Origin: Fragilariopsis cylindrus CCMP1102
Taxonomy: Eukaryota; Bacillariophyta; Bacillariophyceae; Bacillariales; Bacillariaceae
Assembly: GCA_900095095.1 (NCBI GenBank)
Contig: FMBT01000439.1
Span: forward strand, 43,086 to 107,085
DNA length: 64,000 nucleotides
Reading direction: 5' to 3'
The first letter of the stretch is position 1; every line of letters starts with the position of its first letter. Made by a program: the position numbers and the translations under genes. A model generated the notes under the pieces. The model was not told where the DNA came from and made no database searches. It worked only from the letters and a program-made list of their open reading frames with translations. This document shows, piece by piece, positions 770 through 23,133 of this stretch.

Positions 770-3220
770 ATGGTATTTCATCGTCCTACAACGTCTAGCA
801 CTCACTTCCCCAGGGATAGAGACAACCCGTGTGATACGAACTCCATTGGGTCCACATTCAGTACCAACCCTGGCCAAAATCGACCAAAAATCAATGAAAT
901 AAAACAATTTCATGACGATCCCGACAGGTGGCATGTAGTACCAAGCGGCGGAGCGAAGGCACATTCAACTCAACACTATCAACCACACCCATGCAGATAT
1001 GACGAGTACGGAAGATACTCATCTACAAGAACGACAATGGATATTACCAACATCGAAATCGAAACAACAGCGGAGAGCTTCAGGAGAGAAACAGACAGTG
1101 AAATCGAACATACCGATACTACAGGCACAGTCAATAATCAAACAAATGCAACCGATACAACACAAGGCAATGACAACGTAGATAAAAGTATCGTGGAAAA
1201 CAACGCAAACGGAGGTGGAAATGATGCAGGGAAAGGAACAGGAGGAAATGCAGGTGGCGAAAAAGACGCGGAACAAGGAGGCAACAACAACAACAACAAC
1301 GATGGCAGCGGAAATGGAAATGGGTATGAAGAACAGGCAAGTCAACCTTCTCCAGCGTCGGACGTAAAAGTACTACAGAAGTTCGTAATCGACTTCAACA
1401 TCGCAACCACACCGGCATCTACGATTGGTCTTATTCATAAACAATTCATCAAGGAAGTACTATTGGTTGCACCTTCTACAACTTTCATCGCATCTAATCA
1501 AAGGACTATACCAACACCAGAACCGATAACATCAATCGAACAGTTTCCACAAACTCACTTTATTCATCAGAAGTTCTTTCATCGCGTAGACGTCAGAACC
1601 AAGGTATCATTCACACACGACGTGTATTCCTCAGTGACAGCAATGGAAATTAAAAGAAGAGCAATGCCCTTTCTTCAGGAGCACAATCTCGGCATGTGGA
1701 GCGAGGAAATCAGCAACAATACAAAAATTAGAGTTTGTTGGATACTGAATGCACACAGCAAGGTAGCATACCGACCACTCATGACGGACAAACTGTGCAA
1801 AGGAATAGATCAGCAAAAGGCAAATTATGGGGACGAAAACAACAGACTGCTTAATCAACTGCCAGAGAAGATGCATCACATTGAAGTTCAGACTCGTACA
1901 GTAACGTATCAAGGACATCAAACGGTGGCATGCTGTGTAATGGCATACAAACCGGCAGCTCCAGTCATACGTGAATTAGTGGCAATGTTAGATCATGACT
2001 ATCTTGGAAATGGTACTAGTATCGTATCAGAGGCAGCAGCCAGAGAACTGGACCCAGGGAAATACATCGAGATCATAAACAGCAACACTGCGTTTCACCA
2101 GAATACTAGGACAATATCCGTAAAGTATGTACATGATCTCTTTTGGGAAATCAAATACAGACCGTGCCCCCAGGCAAACTATACTACAGTGAGAGAATGG
2201 ATACTAACAGGATCAGGGGTTGTGTCAATCGAGCCAACCAAAGACACGGAGAAGGAAGGGAGGTATATCATCTTGTGTAAGGCAGAGGGTTTTCCAGTAT
2301 TCAGAAGACTACTACAGGTAATGTTTCAAACGCTGGCGAAAACGATTGAAGAGGACGCAAACCTCAGAGAGAAAGCATTGGGCAAGTTCCAACAATACCC
2401 TACTATCATTGGACCACACAAGATAGGAAGATATGCAGAAAAGAATGCACTCGGACTCCTTAGCAGAATCGACGTACCAACCATACCAAAGCCAGCAATA
2501 CGACCACCATCCTATAAGATTGAATTCGATTTTGGCAGCGCAGATGGCTTTCCTGATATAACAACTGGAGTTGGAACAAAGACAAAGAGATCCAGTGTCA
2601 AGAAAACAGCCAAACAACAATCATGGGCAACAATAGCAGCGCCGACAGTCGCAACAACACAGGCAGGCACTGCCAGTGTTGCCTCGGAACCATCGGAGGC
2701 AGGTCGGAGCTATAGATCGGCGCGCACAGGCATAACAACAAGTGATCAACAAACCACACAATCAGACGCAATGTCAGTACTTACAGAATTCATCTCGCAG
2801 GCAAGGCAAGAGGACGCTGAGAGAAGGAAAGAAGAAAGAGAAGAACGACGCATCGACAGGGCAGACAGGAAAGCAGAGGCAGAAGCAAGGAGGCGCAACG
2901 AGGATAGAAGAGATGAAAGTAATAGGCTCATGTTTCAAACTATGATGGCTACTATCATGGCGAATAACAGCAATGCTACTAGTACCCCAGTGGACGCCAC
3001 AACAGTCAGACCGCCCTCCACACCGAATCACAAAGACAATGCAAATTTGATTGCAGAAAGCAACACCAAGCGATCAAGACAAAAGGTTACAAACGACGAT
3101 ACAATATCATCAACCACAGCCACACAGGAGGAGACCAACAGGATGGACGTGGACAACACCACAGGAAACGGACAACAAAATCACGACGTACAGGAGAACG
3201 GTACGCCGTTGCTTCACTAA
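770..3220 (+). CDS. LINE ORF1 protein (nucleic-acid-binding/gag-like, putative)
   Basis: An 816-residue ORF starts at the first ATG after the leader. The N-terminal ~200 residues are polar and Gly/Asn-rich. The middle (~200-640) is a folded-looking region of unknown family. Near 680-740 there is a highly charged stretch rich in Arg, Glu and Asp, likely helical or coiled coil, and the C-terminus is polar. No zinc knuckle is visible. The function as ORF1 chaperone is inferred from its place ahead of the endonuclease-RT ORF and from the surrounding duplication. The ORF is uninterrupted, unlike ORF2. Its end overlaps the ORF2 frame by about 170 bp in the +1 direction, a usual arrangement for translational coupling in LINEs. 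Confidence 0.7.
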   Translation: MVFHRPTTSSTHFPRDRDNPCDTNSIGSTFSTNPGQNRPKINEIKQFHDDPDRWHVVPSGGAKAHSTQHYQPHPCRYDEYGRYSSTRTTMDITNIEIETTAESFRRETDSEIEHTDTTGTVNNQTNATDTTQGNDNVDKSIVENNANGGGNDAGKGTGGNAGGEKDAEQGGNNNNNNDGSGNGNGYEEQASQPSPASDVKVLQKFVIDFNIATTPASTIGLIHKQFIKEVLLVAPSTTFIASNQRTIPTPEPITSIEQFPQTHFIHQKFFHRVDVRTKVSFTHDVYSSVTAMEIKRRAMPFLQEHNLGMWSEEISNNTKIRVCWILNAHSKVAYRPLMTDKLCKGIDQQKANYGDENNRLLNQLPEKMHHIEVQTRTVTYQGHQTVACCVMAYKPAAPVIRELVAMLDHDYLGNGTSIVSEAAARELDPGKYIEIINSNTAFHQNTRTISVKYVHDLFWEIKYRPCPQANYTTVREWILTGSGVVSIEPTKDTEKEGRYIILCKAEGFPVFRRLLQVMFQTLAKTIEEDANLREKALGKFQQYPTIIGPHKIGRYAEKNALGLLSRIDVPTIPKPAIRPPSYKIEFDFGSADGFPDITTGVGTKTKRSSVKKTAKQQSWATIAAPTVATTQAGTASVASEPSEAGRSYRSARTGITTSDQQTTQSDAMSVLTEFISQARQEDAERRKEEREERRIDRADRKAEAEARRRNEDRRDESNRLMFQTMMATIMANNSNATSTPVDATTVRPPSTPNHKDNANLIAESNTKRSRQKVTNDDTISSTTATQEETNRMDVDNTTGNGQQNHDVQENGTPLLH

Positions 3221-3638
3221 AGGAACCTCGGTAACAACCCCAAACGCAACGTCATTCGAAAGACCTCCTGATAAACAACATACAACAACACCAAATGATC
3301 ATACAACGAGCTCTACGACCTGCAATCACATCGATGAAGAACAACTGTACTACACACCCAGCGAAAATGAAAGTGAACTAGATGACAATAACGACGTGCC
3401 TACAGGCGCAGACCGTATTACAGGCAGCAATAAACCACCAACAGATACAACAGAACAAAACAGACACATGCACCCCCAGAAGGCAGACAAGAGAATAACG
3501 TTAGCAAATCTCCCTTTCGGCCACATCTGTGATGATATAGCAATAAATGACACGCCGTATGTTAGGTTGTACTGCCAGAACGTCAACGGTATCTTGACCG
3601 TGAAGGAATCGGCTTGGATAAAACATTTCAGGAGATAA
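3051..3638 (+). CDS. LINE ORF2, N-terminal part: start of the endonuclease domain
   Basis: This frame overlaps the ORF1 end and holds a Thr/Asn-rich leader followed, close to its stop, by YCQNVNGI. That is the first conserved block (catalytic Asn) of the apurinic-type endonuclease/EEP fold. The rest of the domain lies in the next ORF, one frame back, so the two are halves of one domain. The frame change is placed near 3590-3596, where one missing base would give a continuous reading into FTFNETHGD. Alternative reading: a programmed -1 shift, but no slippery heptamer is seen there. Confidence 0.65.
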   Translation: MQKATPSDQDKRLQTTIQYHQPQPHRRRPTGWTWTTPQETDNKITTYRRTVRRCFTKGTSVTTPNATSFERPPDKQHTTTPNDHTTSSTTCNHIDEEQLYYTPSENESELDDNNDVPTGADRITGSNKPPTDTTEQNRHMHPQKADKRITLANLPFGHICDDIAINDTPYVRLYCQNVNGILTVKESAWIKHFRR

Positions 3639-6600
3639 AACAGGCAGGGGCAGACATCTTCACCTTCAACGAAACCCATGGCGACGAGTCTAATGCGACA
3701 GCTCGTAGCGTACTAAGACTGTCAAAACAGAGGATGTGGAGAGATATAAATGAGGACTGCAAGATTGTACACTCGTCCTCCGTGGCACCAGTATTAACAT
3801 TCACAAAACCTGGAGGTAACATGGTCGGTGTTACAGGCCCATTGGTAGGACGAATAAGAGATACAATAAGGGATCCATTTGGACGATGGTGCGGCTTCAC
3901 TCTAATCGGTCGAGACAACAAAGAAATATTAATTCTAACTGCATACAATGTCTCCCAGGTTGTTAATGCAAAAGTGGGCGATGACACCCTATTTAATCAA
4001 CAAGTGGCCCTGTATAAGCTGAAGAAAATAAGAGAGCCAGATCCGAGGAAAATATTCATCGCAGACCTTACTGCACTGGTACAGAAGGCACGATCAGAAG
4101 ACAAAGACATCATACTGTCAGGCGACTTCAACGAATTAGTAGGCGACGATCCAAATATGATGGCAATAGTACTACGAGCAGGGAATTTGACTGACGCACA
4201 TGGACACCAACATGGTGAAGTAGACATAAAGACGTATACCAGAGGGCACAAGCGCCTAGACTATGTATTTGTAACTCCACGCATGGTAAAACACGTTCTT
4301 CGCAGCGGGTATGAGGCGTTCCATGCAAGAATAGCCTCGGATCATAAAGGATACTTCGTGGACTTTGCATTAGCAGGGTTCCTTGACAGGCAATTGCCTT
4401 CCATATTTACGGCAACATCAAGAGCCATCAGAGGAACCCATCCAAAGAACATTACAAAATATGTGGAACACTTACACAAAGTCTTCAAGATGAGAGACAT
4501 ATACAGGAGAGTACAACTACAAAAGAATTGGTACGAAAAGAAGAAATTGGAAGCACTAGACAGAGAAATCACTGCAGTAATGCTGGAGGCTGAAGAGCAA
4601 TGCAGAATTCATCATAGAGAACCATGGTCAAAGGAAGTGAATGAGGTCTTTACGACGGCGAATATACTCCGAATCCACCTTTCAAGTCTCAAAACAAACA
4701 TCGATTGTAACATACAGATAGAACAGAAACAGCGACTCCTCATGCGGCGAATAGAATTGCCTGATGGCATATTACTAGCCTCTGATGCTCTGCGACTGGC
4801 ACAGAAAAACTGCAGAAAACTGATACAGGAACAAAGGACACAGACAACATCCATCGCCAAAGAGCAAGAGGCAGCCTACGTAGCAATGAATCCGGAAATG
4901 GGAGCCAAAAGGGCGGCACAGATATTTCAGCGGGCACGAGACACAAAGCAAATGATGTCCGAATTACCGTCCAAGATGAATTGCCCAGGAGGAATATCAT
5001 CAATCTTGGTCCCACTACCAAAGGAGGGAATAGAATTGGAATATATACCATTAACGGATGGAGCTACTATCGAAGACGTAATATTGAATCGTAACATACG
5101 ACATTTTCGGCAGGCTGAAACTACACCATTGGCTACCCCTGCTGTGATAGAGACCATTGGCTGGGGAGCAAACACTCACAGGGCTGAAGAACTACTAGAG
5201 GGAACGACTGACCCTTCAGACATCACTGACGATCAATGGTCAAGGTATCTCCTGGCATCCATGAAGAGGCATTCAAAGGAGATCAAAATCACAATTACTT
5301 CAGAGAAGATGATGGGAAAATACAAACGATGGAAAGAAAGAACAAGTACATCCCCTTCGGGTAGACATCTAGGACACTTTCATGCCTTATTTCGGCCGCT
5401 TAAGGCAAAGAACAAAGAAGACAGAGAACGTTTAGACAGCATCAGGCTCCAAATCATTGAATTACATGCAACAATGCTACAAACTGCTTATGACAATGAA
5501 CATGTATATGCCCGATGGGAATACATCCTAACATGCATGCTGGGCAAAGACACAGGCATACCCAGAATCCATCGATTAAGAATTATTCACCTCTACGAGT
5601 GCGACTTGAATCTACTGTTTGCCATCTACTTTCGCGAATTGGATCAACACTGTGAAGACAATTACCTTCTGAACAAAGGAATCTACGGCTGCAGACCAAA
5701 CAAAAGAGCCATAGACCCGGTTTTTGTTGACGTCACACAAACTGAACTTTCAATGATTATGCGAGCAATACTGGTGCGGTTCAACAATGATGCCTCAGCA
5801 TGCTTTGACAGAATACTGGTCCACTTACTTACTCTATGCCTACGGTCGTACGGTATGCCACGGAATCTAACAACAATACTTGGAACACTACTCGAAGCGG
5901 CAAGATACGCAATCAAAACAGGAATAGGAATATCAAAAGAAACATATCAACATTCCAAAGAGTCACCAGCTTTTGGTTCTGGACAAGGGAGCGGCGCTTC
6001 AGCACAAGGCTGGACAAAAATGGCGTCCAATGCCTTTGATGCACATGACAAATTTGGACATGGCTGTCAGTACGAAGATCCGTGGAAACTTGTCATAGTA
6101 TTTCTTCACATGTTAGGATATGTAGATGACAACAACATCACTAATAACGGAAGGCCAGGGGAAACTGTTGAGGACGTCATCAAACGAACTCAACATGATG
6201 CACAATTATGGAACGACCTTCTACGAGCAACCGGAGGGGCACTCAATCTAGAGAAATGCTTCACTCAGGTACTTGATTATAACTTTGCAATCAATGGAGG
6301 TCCAGTGGTGGCACCTGCAGATCCTAAAATAAGGATTGTAATAAAGGATAGGCTGAACAATCAAGACGTCATTCTCAAACCAATTTCGCCATATCAGACA
6401 TACAGCTATCTTGGTACAAAGCAAGGAATTAGCCAGCATCAGAAACAACAACACAAGACGTTACTAATCAAATCAATGGCACTCACCCGTAAACTGGCAA
6501 CGTCAGCAATGTCACCGCGCTGTGCGTGGGTCCATTACACTGCAGTGTTCCAGAGCAGTATTGGCTACCCACTCAGCATGTGCCATATGAGCAGCTCCCA

Positions 6601-12446: not shown

Positions 12447-14924
12447 CTATTCATTATTTGTTAGATCAGAAACAACACTACATTCAGTAGCAGCACTTGT
12501 ATCATAACACATTTCTGCATGATATTGCAAGTGACAACTGACCACTGTTTGAATTCCATTAACCTTCTTAGTCGTATGACAAAGCCAGAAAGGGAACCCT
12601 TTTTCCACAGTACACTGCTCACATTGATAGATTGTTTTATAAGGTCTTTTTACTTTGGCTTTGCTCTTGAAACCTGGACATTTTTCGTATTTACAGTAGG
12701 GTCCACTTCCGGGTTTATCATTATCCTTACTCCTTACAAGACATGGCATTGGTTGATGGACGCGATCAGGCTGTAGCTTCTGTCGCTTCTTAAAAGCTTG
12801 TTGTTTCTTGCGCTTATTCCTACTACTAAACTCAGTAGTAGAAGACGACCGAGGTGTACCAATATCAGTTCTAGTTCCATGGGCTGCTGGAGAAGAAAAG
12901 GGTTGGATAACTGAATCAGATCTTATACTTCTACCATCCACAGATGTAGAAGTAGTAATATCCTTTGTGGCGCTTGGAGGAGGTCCCGAATCCCGCTGTC
13001 ACATAGGATCACCTCTTTGAAGAAGAGAGTGTGTCAAATTATGTATGCATTCTTTCAAAGGCATACATTTCCTGTCAGGATGAACCATCTTATAAATAAC
13101 ACAGTACAGCTTGTAAGCATTGTTAAGATTCATATTGAAATAACGGGCTGCTAACTTGGGCGCCCAACCATGCAGATGCGATTCAGTAGAGAGATCATAC
13201 TTGGCTTCAGCACCATTGCCTTTATCAATCTTGTGATAGGTGTTGCAGTAGTCAATCTGTTGAGCATTGCAATCAACATCAGTTTGGTCCCTAGATCTTT
13301 TCCCAGTGACTGGATCTCTTACTCGTCTCTTCATTCCACCCTCAACAATAGTAGGAGAATGGAAATTAGAAAGTGTCTTGACAAAGTTGTTGTCAGCCCA
13401 AACAGCATGCACAATTGGCTTGGTCTTGTGTTGGTAGAGGAGAGACTTGTGTGTGCCCTTTACGAGTTCCTTCTCCTTGATAGCAAGCTTGCCTAACTTT
13501 CCACCACCAGTCCGAGACGATTGACAAGTACCAACCATGTTAATACCCCACTCCTCTCTTCCAACTTGACACATGGCATCACCCATGTAAGCAGAATCCA
13601 TGACAACACAATGACCCTTATGTTTGTAAGGCTCAAGCATAAGGTCATAGAGAGACACCATCTTGAGTTTCGTTGCAGTATGGCTGTTTCGAACATCGAC
13701 ATCCTCATCAAATCTACCACCATAGACCCTAGCAAACAACTTGTATGTATGTAGGGGACCTTCAGTGATACAGACAGTATGTAGAGTAGCACCAGTTCGA
13801 ATTGGTTTGGGCTCTGGTCCTATAGTCATGACACTATGATACCAGCCAGCCACTCGACTCTCATCAGTTGTGATCCATCTTCCAGCATGAACTACAGCTT
13901 GCCACCGCTTGTAAGTAGTAAGTAGAAGAAGAAGAAGGAAGGTAGGTTAGTAATTGATTCGAAACATGATAATAACAACAACAACAACACTACATACCTT
14001 ATTATATGCATCTTCTAATATACCAAACTTCAATCGATGTACTGCCATATTAGGGTCAGCATCAACTTTAGTTTCGTATATATCCAACCAATCATCAGCT
14101 CCCATAAGGTCCCAATCATCACTGTAGTGAAGGCAGCTAGTCATATCTTCCAAAGCATTCTTTGGCATTGATTCTTGAATCGATGGTACTGCATTGAAGA
14201 TTTCCCTTGTACAGAATATTTGATTGATTGATCGATTACCACAAAGCATCTTAGCAAGCATGGCTCCATAGAAACGAGCTACATGGTCAGCTTCAATCTC
14301 ATTCTCCCAACTGTAGTACTTGGGAGCCCATGCATCTTCAATCATTCTTTTCTTCATATAATTTCTCATTCTTGCAGATTGAAATTCAAATAAAGATTGA
14401 TCATTATCATCACCAAACTTAGGAAGACACCATTCGAATACTTTTTCATACCTAATCTCTCTCCTATCATCCATTAACAGTCGGATCTCCTCTGGTGTTA
14501 TGTTAACAGTAAACTCATTGTTTCGACCAGACCATTCAATCGGTTCAATAGGACGTCCATTGCCATCTTCTACTTTGGTCCATTCCTCAGCCGGCGTTAG
14601 TGAGTACATGGTTCCATCCTCAGTTACAATCTCATCATCTCCTTGTCGTACGACTTCAAAAGGGAGATTGAATGATTCAATGGTAGAGTGCTGTGTGTTG
14701 CAGTATTCAAGGATTGCATCATATGCAATGAGATACTGATCATCATCATCTTGATCATCCAATTCAATAAACCATTTTTGGTTCACTACATCAAATGACA
14801 TTATCTTACCATCATGTTTATATGATCCAGTATAACCAACCCACCAGTGGTCGGGTATCTTCACAGATAGTCCTACTAGTGAATCGGCCCATTCTACATC
14901 AATTTTCTTTGTCCTAGGTGCCAT
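12447..14924 (-). pseudogene. piggyBac-type transposase, two exons, one in-frame UGA
   Basis: Exon 1 is 14924-13998 (309 codons); a GTATGT donor and an AAG acceptor define the intron 13997-13908, and exon 2 runs 13907-12447 in phase. Exon 1 carries the N-terminal piggyBac region. Exon 2 starts with TTDESRVAGW (first catalytic Asp), then VVMDSAYMGD (second Asp) and VWADNNFVKTLSNFH (third Asp block). IDYCNTYHKIDKG matches the DYNxxMxGVD region. The C-terminal ~160 residues have a Cys/His-rich tail (CKYEKC, CEQC, C-x-L-x2-H), typical of these transposases. A single TGA at 12998-13000 interrupts the frame between catalytic core and tail; reading continues open in the same frame after it. CGA to TGA is a likely origin. 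The total would be near 795 residues. Confidence 0.85.
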
Positions 14925-17961: not shown

Positions 17962-20797
17962 TTACATTTCAGTGCCATCGTCACGAAGTGAATCAGCTGG
18001 GGGAATATTTACACTATCGAGCTCCTTGTTACAATTTGCTAGGTAGCCTGAATCAGGGTATCCATGGGCAGTAACGCCTCCATTCAGAGACGTCTTATGG
18101 TGGATGTTAGACCAAGTACACTTATTTGCAATCCCTGTCGTCAAGGACATCCCCACAGTGAACGTAAGACCACGCAAAAAGGCATATTTTAATCTCTTGA
18201 GAAGCTTTTCCCCTTCCGTATTGCCAGGAATATAGGCCGTTGTCCGTTTTCCACTGTGAGATTGTCCTGGATTTTCATGGTAACTTTTTTGCGTGCCACT
18301 TTTCATTGAATATGTTACAACAATGGTAGAGTCAAAATCAAACCCAGAACAGCAAAGACTACTACTGTACGACACAGACATGGATCCGGATGGTGACTTT
18401 CCTTGTGGCTTTCCAATTTCTTTCCTGCAGATCGGACATTGACTCTTTACTTCGAAAGCGTGTTCGACGCAACTTCGACGGAAGACATGGTTACAAACGG
18501 CAAGAATTACACAGGGATCAGGCCGTAATACTTCTTGACAAATTGGACATTCATCATCTACTTTAAATAACGACGTCTCAAAACCAGTGCATCCAAAGGC
18601 ACACCTGCAGTAACAGTTTTAGGAGCTCGATACAAAATCGGTAATGAGTTGAACGTCACACTTATATTAGGTCTGTTGTTGATAACTTGGCGTGCTTGTA
18701 TTAGACGTTGTTGAGATTGTTGTTGTTGTTGCTGCTGCTGTTGTTGCACGGTAGCATTACTTCTTCCAACGTTCGATACGTTCGACGGTGCACTTGTAGC
18801 AGCAGCAGTAGCAGTAGCAGTAGCAGTAGTAGTGGCAGCAGCAGCAGCAGCAGTAGTAGTGGCAGCAGCAGCAGCAGCAGCAGCATTAGCATTAGCATTA
18901 ACAGCATTAGCAGTAGCTGTAACACTAGTGTTAGGAGCTTGGTACAAAATGGGTAACGAGCTAGACAACGCCGCATTTGTAGTAGCACTTTTGTTAGTAG
19001 CTTGGCGTGCTCGTAGTAGACGCTGTTGATATTGTTGCTGTTGTTGCTGCTGTCTTCGCTGTAGTTGCTGATGCTTGTTGGGAGTAGATCGAGTTTGTTG
19101 GAGATGAAGTCCCGCAGTGATAGCATCCGCAAAGGGTATGTAGTAAAAGGATGTCGAAGGTTTACTAGCACTACTATTGTCAATGCGTGCGACATAGATC
19201 TCCCTTAGTGTTGCCGCCCTCGATTGTGAAAGCATCTTCGCAATGGCCGTAGAAAAGTATCGCGATTTGTCCCCAACAATGATTCCCATCGGTGCTTGCT
19301 GATATCCTTTGTTGAATAGGCCATCAAGTATACTTTGCAAGGAGGATTCAAATTGTTGTATGCATTTCCTCCCCTTCGACGTCTTAATCAACGTTTTACT
19401 ATATTTGACTAACGGTAATACTTGCGATGAAGAACGTAGTACAACCTCGTGATTATAATCATTTGTTGGCCAACCGTCGTCATTAAAATCTTCGTCTTGT
19501 ATCATAGCCTCAGTAATCTTATCTCCACAAATAGACTTTACATCTTCATCTACATGGAAGTTGTGAACTTTAAGAGCGAACGGGACTCGGACATTTGTAC
19601 CCTGAAGTCGAGCGACGATCAACCCTACAGCTCCATAGCCACTACACGCTATTGGATTGTTAGCAGTATATATCCCATCTCCAAAAGCTGACCCATGCTT
19701 TTTGAGAACTTGAATGTTTTGATGAGCTCTTTCATTTTTTGTCAACAACCCATTTTCACAGATCTTTTCGGTATTCTCAATAGAAGTATAGTGATAACCT
19801 AAATCAACGTAAGCGGGAATATTTCTATTTACAAAATCTTGTTGTTGTCCAAGCAAACGTTCTGCTAGATAAACCATATCATCAACAGAAACTTCATTGA
19901 TATCATCTGCATACATTGGAAATTTCTCCTTAAGGTCTTGAACTAATTTGATGATGGACTGTACCGCCAACACTGCTTTTCCACTTTTATTGTCGGCCAT
20001 CGCCTTCTCTTCTTTCTGAATTTCTTGCTTTGATTGTTCTTCTTCTTCGTTCTGAAGTTTTTGTGCTAATGTCATATCAGATTCTATAGTACTTTGTGTC
20101 TGTCGCTCTTCGAAACGTTGTCTCTTTCTTCCATTATTGGTGCCATCCGATCTAGGAATTGCGCTTGATAGCGTAGGTTTCGCCGTTGGTTTTCGATCTT
20201 CATCTTCATCCAAATCTTTGTCGGATCGGAGTCGTCGTCGATTTCAATTACCTCCGCCTTTTGAGTCGGAGTCTTCGAAGCAGTTGCAGCTTTCGTCGTC
20301 CAATCTAATATGGATTGTGCGGCGTTCGTCGTCCAATCCAATATGGATTGTGAAGGAAGATTTTGAGCCAGTGACTGAGCTTGAGCTTGAGTCTTCGGAG
20401 CAGTTGCAAGTTTCACATTTTCTTTCAATTCTTCTTGAGGAGCCATCTTCCTATTTCTTTCGATTTTCTTCCTCTTCTTTGGTCGTGTATTATTATCACG
20501 GCTATTGTCGTCGTCGTCGTCGTTGCCGTCGTCCGATCTTTGAATAACCTGATTTTTTGCGTTATGCTGTTGGATTGTTGCCTTATCTCGTTTCCCGAAT
20601 TCTTGCCCATTTTCTCTGGTCTGTACCAGTCGTTCTTTCTTGGTGAGCTTACGATTTGGCGATGCACTCTCTTCTTTCCTGATGAGACTACGATCCGGTT
20701 TCGTCGCTTCTTTTCTGGTTACCTTTCCTCTCTTCGGTTCTGATTTAGTCATCGCCGCCGCAATGGCTTCAGCCTTCTGGTTTCTAGTTTGCACCAT
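17962..20797 (-). CDS. PARP-type ADP-ribosyltransferase fused to RING-Deltex (DTC) E3 module
   Basis: Read from 20797 downward. An N-terminal basic/acidic region (MVQTRNQK...) carries VIEIDDDSD, a SUMO-interaction-like motif. One base seems missing near 20212-20232, after which the frame runs to 18558. Next come LAQKLQNEEEE (ubiquitin-binding MIU-like) and an ART domain with YHYTS, GSAFGDGIYTA, CSGYG and NHEVV, which supply a PARP-like His-Tyr-Glu triad. A Gln/Ala/Thr-rich linker follows with two copies of a QQRL-ARQ-SLPILY-AP module. The last frame (from about 18604 or 18560 to 17962) holds a RING finger (ECPIC ... CNHVF ... QCPIC) and a complete Deltex C-terminal domain (NPGQSHSGKRTTAYIPG, HHKTSLNGG, HGYPDSGYL). 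Linker and RING are joined either by a second missing base or by a 44-nt GT-AG intron (18604-18561) that keeps phase. Known DTC domains bind ADP-ribose and direct ubiquitin ligation. The fusion itself is the novelty. The fifth RING zinc ligand is Arg. Confidence 0.75.
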
Positions 20798-21294
20798 CTT
20801 TTCGCAAATTTATCTCGAATGAAAATAATGGTGCTGTGAGGAACTGTGAGCCTAAAGCTTACTCTAAGATTAAAAATGTTCAAACCGAATGAATACTTCT
20901 ATTAAAAAACGAAGAAAAAAAAAGAATGAAAACGGAGAGGATATCGGTAGCAGAAAAATCCGAAAATGGTGGAGATTTCTTTTAAGAAGCTATAAAGCGT
21001 GTTTGAAGCGTTGGAAAACAGGACTGAATTTCGAAATATGGCCCTGATGATGAACTTTTTAATTGGTGGACAAAAAAGACAAAAAGATTGATCGACGTCA
21101 ACAACAACAACACACATCAACAACAACGGCACAAAAAAAACAAAAACAAACAAACAAACAAACAAACAAACCTGAAAACTGTAACACCACAATCGGTCTA
21201 TTATCATAATTGAAATCGACTGCCTCAAGCAAGCAACTAGCATATAACATTTAAAAAATCATATCAAACTTGAACATAATATAGAAGTGCCATC
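20798..21294. promoter_or_regulatory. Divergent promoter region (ART-Deltex / ARP4)
   Basis: About 500 bp separates the two ATGs, which point away from each other, so both promoters must lie here. A CAAA tetranucleotide run occurs near 21150-21172. No TATA box can be assigned with confidence. Confidence 0.5.
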
Positions 21295-23133
21295 ATGTAT
21301 TGCGGTGATGAAACTGGATCCTTTATTGGAGAGATTGGTAGCCATACATGTCGCTTTGGTTATGGAGGAGAAGATAATCCCAAAATGGTGTCACCATCTT
21401 ACGTTGTCTCTTCTTCTTCTTCCAAATCATCATCATCTAATCAACAACAACGTCGAATGGCTCGTTTTTCATCATTACATCCTCCAAAAGAAGATGAAGT
21501 AATGGAATCTATTCTTCGTATGCCATCAGGTTATCGTCGTGACGACGACGACGACGACAACAACACTACAAATAATACATTTTCAGTACAGCCGATAACG
21601 AATCCAAATTCATTCTTACGACAGGGTGAATTAGTGGAAAATTGGGATAATATGGAAACAGCATGGGAAACAAGTATGATACCCTTCGAGTAAGAGATAC
21701 ATTGAAACATACAAAAGGTGGGACTCCGTACAGTAAAAAAACTCAAAGTCATTCCAGTGGTGTTACGTCTACTACTGTCCAGTGATGGTGATGGTGGGGA
21801 AGACGAAACCAATGGTGGGAGTGGTGATGGACGATGTGTTCATCCGATATTGGCTGTCATGCCTGGTTATTCGGAATATAGTGATTCGAATTCATCCTCG
21901 TCCAACTTCGACGACGACGACCGCCGCGCCGCTGATAATAATAATGGAGTTGGTTCTCAATACAATGCTGCCACGAAACGCAATGAATACATTAAGTATA
22001 CTGAATTAATAATGGAATCATTAGAGGCATCCAGTGTGTTTCTAGCTCCGGCTCCGATGTTAGCGGCATTTTCTCTTGGTAGACAAACAGCATTAATGGT
22101 GGATATTGGTGCGGGTGGGTGTTGTGTGACACCGATCGTGGATGGATTAGTATTAAAAAATTCTCAGCGACGGAATGGACGTGGCGGAGATTGGTTAGGT
22201 GATATGACCTGGAAGGCATTACAAGAAAACAAACAATCTAAATCCGACAAAAGAAATAGTAATAATAATAATAATAATAATGATAAGAAAGAAGGGGAAT
22301 CATTACCATCATTATCACCATCATTTCCCGTAATCAAACCAAGGTATATGTTAGGAAAAAAAGTGGCATCTTCGACGAATTCTATATTTCAACGACGTTC
22401 CATGAATGATTTAATGTACGAGATACGAACGGAACCATTTATTGCGTTACATACTACAAATCACATTGCAAGTATTCGAATTCCATTTGTTTCTACTTGT
22501 GGTAGGAACCACGATGACGACGATGACGACGATGACGACGATAGTGATGATGACGACGTTGTGATGAATTCTCCTCCAGGTACTACTTCTTCAGGTAATA
22601 TCAACAATAATGGCATTACTAATGTGGGAGGGCAAGGATCCATATATCATTTACCCGATGGAACTCCGGTGGACTTAGCTTCATCCTTTGGACGTGATTT
22701 GTGTCAACTTCCTGAATTATTGTTTGCTGAAACAACAACGTTACCATTTCAACATAATAATAATCCATCATCGTCAGTTTTACAATCAACAACATTATCG
22801 AATGAACCGTTACATAAATTAATACACGAATCACTGTTATCTATTGGTGATGTTGATGCACGGAAAGAATTAGCACAATGTATTTGTTTAGTTGGTGGTT
22901 CATCTTTGTTACACAATATTGAAACAAGATTATCACAGGAATTATCAGCAATTTTACCATCCTTTGTGAAACCGAAAGTATTAGTATCAAGAGTTTCTTC
23001 CGTTGAAAGATCATGTGCATCATGGATCGGGGCATCCATATTAACATCGTTGGGCTCATTCCAACAATTATGGTTAAGTAAAGCAGAATATGAAGAATAC
23101 GGTACTGCTATGGCTATACAACGGTTCCCGTGA
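21295..23133 (+). CDS. ARP4: Actin-related protein 4 (ARP4/BAF53 type)
   Basis: Starts MYCGDETGSFIGEIGSHTCRFGYGGED, the ARP4 N-terminus, and ends with ASWIGASILTSLGSFQQLW and SKAEYEEYG, the actin-fold C-terminus with ARP4 character. The middle has LMVDIGAGGCCVTPIVDG (phosphate loop region). ARP4 is a nuclear subunit of SWI/SNF-, INO80/SWR1- and NuA4-type complexes. A TAA at 21691-21693 interrupts the frame; a 93-nt intron (GTAAGA at 21690, CAG ending 21782) removes it and keeps phase, giving ~581 residues. Alternatively a one-base loss near 21678 is at fault, because the intron also reads like coding sequence in another frame. Extra length over the usual 430-490 comes from Ser-, Asn- and Asp-rich inserts, including an acidic tract near 22512-22556. 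Confidence 0.88.

Follow-up and report, generated by a model that had tools for sequence, protein, structure and literature searches.

A family of single-chain ART-RING-DTC proteins in diatoms, with a probably decaying copy in Fragilariopsis cylindrus

Can a single polypeptide write ADP-ribose and then attach ubiquitin to it? This question is raised by a minus-strand locus of the diatom Fragilariopsis cylindrus CCMP1102, situated in the 64,000-nucleotide stretch of contig FMBT01000439.1 that was analysed here (the window). A first-pass annotation had read the locus as a natural diatom fusion of a PARP-type ART domain with a RING-Deltex (DTC) ligase. The dual mark ADP-ribosyl-ubiquitin was discovered only recently, and a natural fusion would mean that both steps belong together, thus providing a compact system for testing just that. 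Judged by sequence comparison, the single-chain architecture is real and recurrent in diatoms. The reading that we favour, and consider fairly likely, is that the window gene is a member of this family, that intact members write ADP-ribose and subsequently ubiquitylate it, and that the window copy itself is probably decaying.

We set the scene with the layout of the gene region, of which the features are collected in Table 1. The minus strand carries three overlapping open frames (20809-20084, 20243-18558, and 18618-17962), the first having an ATG at 20797 and the last a stop that ends at 17962. Read from 20797 to 17962, they encode, in collinear order, a basic/acidic segment at the N-terminus, then an ART-like domain, and finally a RING plus DTC. 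The N-terminal segment (20225..20797) yielded no match in a Pfam scan. Its closing nonapeptide (20225..20251) presumably resembles a SUMO-interacting motif, and the acidic stretch at 20034..20078 is taken by us to resemble ubiquitin-binding helices; UIM matches were weak and confined to two of 28 family members (best E=0.028, Pfam scan of the ART-only set).

Table 1. Features of the ART-RING-DTC gene region, in window positions
Feature	Position	Strand	Evidence
Whole gene region, ATG to stop	17962..20797	-	tblastn collinear with P0116; ATG and stop checked
N-terminal basic/acidic segment	20225..20797	-	frame -1; matches P0116 residues 1-171, 64% identity
VIEIDDDSD	20225..20251	-	P0068 identical; P0116 differs once (VIEIDNDSD)
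Frame break 1: tandem duplication of TCCGA	20221..20230	-	P0068 and P0116 proteins run through
DMTLAQKLQNEEEEQ, acidic helix-like stretch	20034..20078	-	DxxLAxxLQxxE present in family consensus (profiles A1, A3)
ART domain core	19374..19976	-	model residues 20-220
ART His (YHYT)	19791..19793	-	105/105 aligned
ART Tyr (GDGIYTANN)	19668..19670	-	103/105 aligned
ART Glu (NHEVV), third of H-Y-E	19446..19448	-	Glu in 60/105; opens model strand 196-199
GTTTT versus one codon in P0116, frame break 2	18580..18584	-	flanks AGVPLDAL and ETSLFKVDDECPIC conserved as protein
RING finger, C3H2C3 type in relatives	18427..18549	-	Pfam zf-RING_2 E=4.2e-9
Arg codon (CGT) at fifth RING zinc ligand, His in relatives	18478..18480	-	RING-DTC alignment
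DTC domain, His (HHKT) and Glu (KELD) of catalytic pair	18013..18405	-	Pfam DTC E=1.3e-40; aligned with DTX3L, DTX2

A search for the same architecture in other diatom proteomes had been proposed at first pass, and the architecture does recur in diatoms. Three protein searches, returning 67, 48, and 56 rows, gave 155 distinct proteins, to which a paralogue on contig C90 of the same genome and two window pieces were added; the resulting 158 sequences were compared with our own ART and RING-DTC profiles. At least 70% of both profiles is covered in 63 of the 158 (62 database proteins and the C90 paralogue), a share that is no census because the rows were drawn from ART- or Deltex-based searches. 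In each of these 63 sequences, the ART precedes the RING-DTC. Where the organism of an ART-match row is legible, it is Thalassiosira (including T. profunda, T. exigua, and T. oceanica), Skeletonema marinoi, S. dohrnii, Chaetoceros tenuissimus, Mayamaea, Epithemia, or a Bacillariaceae MAG, and the genera checked in the taxonomy are diatoms. The sole animal row, P0063 from Branchiostoma, has the RING-DTC and lacks an ART match.

Three members deserve a closer description. The C90 paralogue holds most of the ART together with the RING and DTC within one 418-aa open frame, which spans positions 60-271 of the 276 in the ART profile (45% identity in the ART match), has a Pfam RING match, and keeps all eight zinc ligands; its first ART helices appear to be located in an upstream frame. 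P0116 is a predicted protein of 985 aa that matches the window gene end to end as its orthologue, and since it is encoded on a contig of 3,244 bases, there is hardly room for introns. P0113 is an MMETSP open reading frame labelled ‘complete’ that holds all three domains. The suspicion that the fusion had escaped automatic annotation is supported as far as domains are concerned, PF00644 never appearing in the precomputed Pfam columns of the three protein searches. Among open-licence papers on Deltex, DTX3L/PARP9, and diatom PARPs, we found no description of an ART-RING-DTC chain, and so far as that literature reaches the architecture is undescribed, although it may have been described in print outside that scope.

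At the C-terminal end, the first-pass claim that a RING and a full DTC (PF18102) follow the ART was borne out, both Pfam matches lying above cut-off (Table 1). Compared with the PDB, the DTC finds human DTX3L (3pg6, E=1.7e-32) and DTX2 (6y22, E=4.2e-30), and it has His and Glu at the positions equivalent to DTX2 H582/E608. Across 97 aligned family sequences this pair is present as His in 74 and as Glu in 80, with 10 gaps in each column, and Pro replaces the His in seven. The RING of the window copy, located before the DTC, does not have all eight zinc ligands, the fifth being Arg. This position is His in 91 of the 97 aligned sequences, a gap in four, Cys in one, and Arg in the window alone.

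Sequence-profile recognition of the ART, on the other hand, is weak throughout. Pfam PARP (PF00644) is found in the middle frame at E=0.001 and 19 bits, and scores of 19 and 20.9 bits stay below the gathering score of 26.7; the profile check proposed earlier thus succeeded for the DTC and fell short for PARP. At E≤0.1 the PARP profile is found in only P0050 and P0075 of ten relatives scanned, the C90 paralogue being without it, and it matches six of the 28 ART-only rows. These 28 rows (set A3) were used because the first profile (A1) was swamped by RING/DTC when compared with the PDB; the ART-only profile returned no PARP among nine PDB matches at E≤10, with DarT as the best (0.12). Alignment by hhalign with two other PARP-matching frames of the genome gave probabilities of 0.8 and 4.9% (single-sequence templates).

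The PARP claim therefore rests on fold and residue order. Structure prediction had been proposed at first pass: the AlphaFold model of the ART (pLDDT 87.7) has a PARP-like fold, and its structural matches are PARP-family proteins in 50 of 50 among the matches listed. His, Tyr, and Glu follow each other in PARP order. The His (YHYTS) and Glu (NHEVV) had been assigned correctly, whereas the Tyr is that of GDGIYTANN rather than CSGYG, as the family alignment reveals. By predicted fold and residue order, the window ART is thus a PARP-type ART. Residue counts refer to the 105 of 157 sequences in which the ART profile is covered to 70% or more (the other 52 were dropped) and supersede an earlier count of 94/114, for which sequences were picked by the His/Tyr motif. 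By its third residue, the family falls into an H-Y-E type, to which the window gene belongs, and others that are mostly aliphatic at this position. Glu is absent in 45 of the 105 (two by gap), including the C90 paralogue, which is of the H-Y-L type, and Glu versus non-Glu amounts to two changes on a tree in which the third-residue column was left.

How might such a chain operate? In DTX2 (H582/E608) and DTX3L (H707/E733), it is the DTC His and Glu by which the 3'-hydroxyl of ADP-ribose is made ready to receive ubiquitin (PMC7615817, PMC10810221). Intact family members are built from a low-complexity N-terminus, followed by the PARP-type ART, a linker, the RING, and the DTC. The ART would bind NAD+ and place ADP-ribose on a substrate or on its own chain; the tethered DTC would bind that ADP-ribose and activate its 3'-hydroxyl via the pair of conserved His and Glu residues, and the RING would deliver ubiquitin from an E2, yielding, by the chemistry of DTX2/DTX3L, an ADP-ribose-linked ubiquitin. 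Following the rules for PARPs, H-Y-E members may also elongate ADP-ribose, and non-H-Y-E members would be mono-transferases or inactive. Binding motifs for SUMO and ubiquitin may be present in the N-terminus as well. By analogy, writing, reading, and ubiquitin transfer would all be performed by one chain.

We turn next to the two frame breaks of the window copy. In a tblastn comparison, P0116 is collinear with the window through frames -1, -3, and -2: its residues 172-714 correspond to 20225-18606 in frame -3, a further piece in the same frame reaches 18585, and residues 782-985 correspond to 18579-17965 in frame -2 (86% identity). One could think of two adjacent genes, or of a single gene with introns at the joins. 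A 44-base GT...AG stretch (18604-18561, spotted by eye) would indeed restore the frame at the second join, and some rows are proteins with an ART match but without a RING-DTC match. However, that stretch begins with coding for residues common to the relatives (AGxPxxAL), each of the 12 frame-fitting GT...AG candidates at the first join would cost between 12 and 75 residues that are the same in P0116, and in the relatives all domains reside on one predicted protein, with P0116, P0072, P0113, and the C90 paralogue speaking against a division. We regard this reading as extremely improbable; introns at both joins were rejected on the protein sequence of relatives, and the idea that the fusion is a matter of chance or a frame-join artefact was rejected on account of C90 and P0116. 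Since the candidate introns would remove residues shared with relatives, both joins are read as small indels, and the assembled window copy consequently encodes no single uninterrupted chain. The joins that the first-pass annotation had seen are present, but a working fusion across them finds no support in the window copy, in which two indels break the frame and one zinc ligand of the RING is lost; the natural diatom fusion stands for the family (63 of 158 sequences, ART first).

A damaged copy may also be a matter of assembly, in which case the gene would be intact in the organism and the two breaks, perhaps along with the Arg, would be errors. A chaperonin-family gene on C347 of the same assembly is frame-broken as well, with overlapping pieces and therefore no room for an intron. 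In addition, the window ART shares 98% identity with P0069 across 86% of the region searched, the RING-DTC is as close to P0116 as given above, and no overall surplus of changes is seen at conserved positions: four of 87 conserved columns are altered, versus 0-9 in 48 relatives that were picked by a motif including the RING His (the ligand count comes from the separate 97-sequence alignment). Nonetheless, the first break is a 5-bp tandem duplication rather than a homopolymer slip, and two breaks fall within 2.8 kb, in addition to an Arg at the fifth zinc ligand that is unique among 97 sequences. We consider assembly error somewhat unlikely; a tandem duplication and a second break, together with the lost zinc ligand, make decay the likelier explanation, and the window copy is probably an allele or locus in decay. 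The genome that was searched comprises 67.9 Mb in 818 contigs, with the window on contig C59, and a DNA search of it returned the locus itself and 27 short matches (~30-70 bases) and no second copy of the window gene.

The other doubts concern what the ART does. In animals, the DTX3L-PARP9 pair similarly joins a protein of ART fold to a RING-DTC ligase that has the DTC His-Glu pair, but it consists of two proteins, and PARP9 has macrodomains and an inactive Q-Y/S-T/S in place of H-Y-E (PMC2964712). Of the likeness to PARP9 drawn at first pass, the pairing of an ART with a RING-DTC holds, whereas the H-Y-E of the window sets it apart. Macrodomains had no Pfam match in the window pieces or in ten relatives scanned, so the combination of macrodomains with an ART lacking H-Y-E by which a PARP9/DTX3L orthologue would be known is not that of the window gene. 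In other PARPs, loss of the Glu is tied to mono-transferase or lost activity, and where an aliphatic residue takes its place, a change to mono-transferase activity is assumed (PMC2964712). The family ART might be a pseudo-enzyme, as has been proposed for PARP9, which would direct the Deltex ligase by binding NAD+, ADP-ribose, or a partner but would transfer no ADP-ribose itself, a reading in keeping with the missing Glu in 45 of 105 aligned members, the C90 paralogue among them, and with the reported inactivity of the animal partner of DTX3L. Yet the His is kept in all 105 and the Tyr in 103, even without the Glu, whereas PARP9 has lost its His, and the aliphatic replacement is taken for a mono-transferase switch in other PARPs; we think a pseudo-enzyme unlikely. 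It is quite unlikely, in our view, that the target of the ART is ubiquitin or the E2/E3 itself, which would make the fusion a self-regulated ligase and not a substrate writer; that a single chain favours action in cis speaks for it by reasoning alone. Our preferred reading remains that of an ART writing ADP-ribose for the tethered DTC.

Other known systems share parts of the architecture. DTX1, DTX2, DTX3, and DTX4 likewise end in a RING followed by a DTC, but DTX1/2/4 have WWE domains (PMC12687431), for which the window has no match, and in the literature covered no ART is ascribed to any of the four. PARP10/14/15 and the tankyrases have the ART fold and the order H-Y-[E or aliphatic]; the window ART, in contrast, has a similarity below the Pfam cut-off, and no RING-DTC is described on PARPs in the literature covered. 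The nearest precedent in that literature is Dictyostelium DDB0232928 (U-box, macro, and PARP), in which a PARP and a ubiquitin-ligase-type domain also occur on one chain (PMC2964712). As it has a U-box rather than a RING-DTC, it lacks a DTC for acting on ADP-ribose.

It has been stated that diatoms lack PARPs, a view for which the family is relevant. Further PARP-matching frames of this genome lie on C78 and C139. In the sections covered, Citarelli 2010 found none in the two diatoms searched (PMC2964712), and Perina 2014 reported PARPs in Thalassiosira oceanica, with T. pseudonana seemingly PARPless (PMC4245714). Writer-Deltex pairings in animals are still being worked out, namely PARP7 with DTX2 and PARP14/PARP9 with DTX3L (PMC12687431). 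Sex in four diatom species is accompanied by upregulation of Deltex-family genes, members unspecified (PMC12618581), which suggests a phenotype to look for; a term search of the text covered found neither ADP-ribosylation nor PARP. A Seminavis sex-pheromone study names RBR and U-box ligases, not Deltex, in the part covered (PMC8027222), and Ectocarpus gamete transcripts include Deltex (PMC3879662). A broader proposal, which we put forward only tentatively and with less than even confidence, is that of a widespread unannotated diatom class in which one chain writes ADP-ribose and ubiquitylates it, with an early H-Y-E/H-Y-aliphatic split and maybe a sexual role.

Several related architectures were encountered along the way. 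P0064 and P0065 have a family-type ART with a TAZ zinc finger in place of the RING-DTC. The MMETSP proteins P0136-P0138 are listed with WGR, WWE, and RING-DTC and have no ART match; WGR and WWE are domains characteristic of PARP and ADP-ribose biology. In the C90 paralogue, the region upstream of the ART (L023, C90:516500-523500; 3177-4357, minus strand) contains FG-rich repeats and a motif like the GLEBS of Nup98 (E=2.5e-5, 24.7 bits, cut-off 27), and P0103 combines an ART (E=3e-21) with three stretches of GLEBS. From sequence, this combination in the C90 region and P0103 hints at nuclear-pore-linked ART proteins.

Elsewhere in the genome, a region of C60 (L026, 3002-4096, plus strand) encodes a DTC followed by a RING, with more DTC matches split over later frames, and is 95.6% identical to its counterpart on C803 (L027). 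A 1091-aa frame on C166 (L024, 1139-4414, plus strand) combines a long acidic N-terminus with a DTC and a weak RING, has no PARP match at E≤0.01, and forms a haplotype-like pair with C562 (L025), the two being 99.9% identical over 7 kb. Cpn60/TCP-1 chaperonin-family genes are broken on C347 (L036, a frame break) and on C655 (L037, a break plus stops), so frame breaks do occur in this assembly. Within the window, a DDE_Tnp_1_7 transposase match (E=3e-12) lies at 13002-13946 on the minus strand. An actin-family gene is found at 21280-23133 on the plus strand (Pfam Actin E=2.4e-52 on 21709-23130), where a stop near 21693 between two same-frame pieces marks either an intron or a break.
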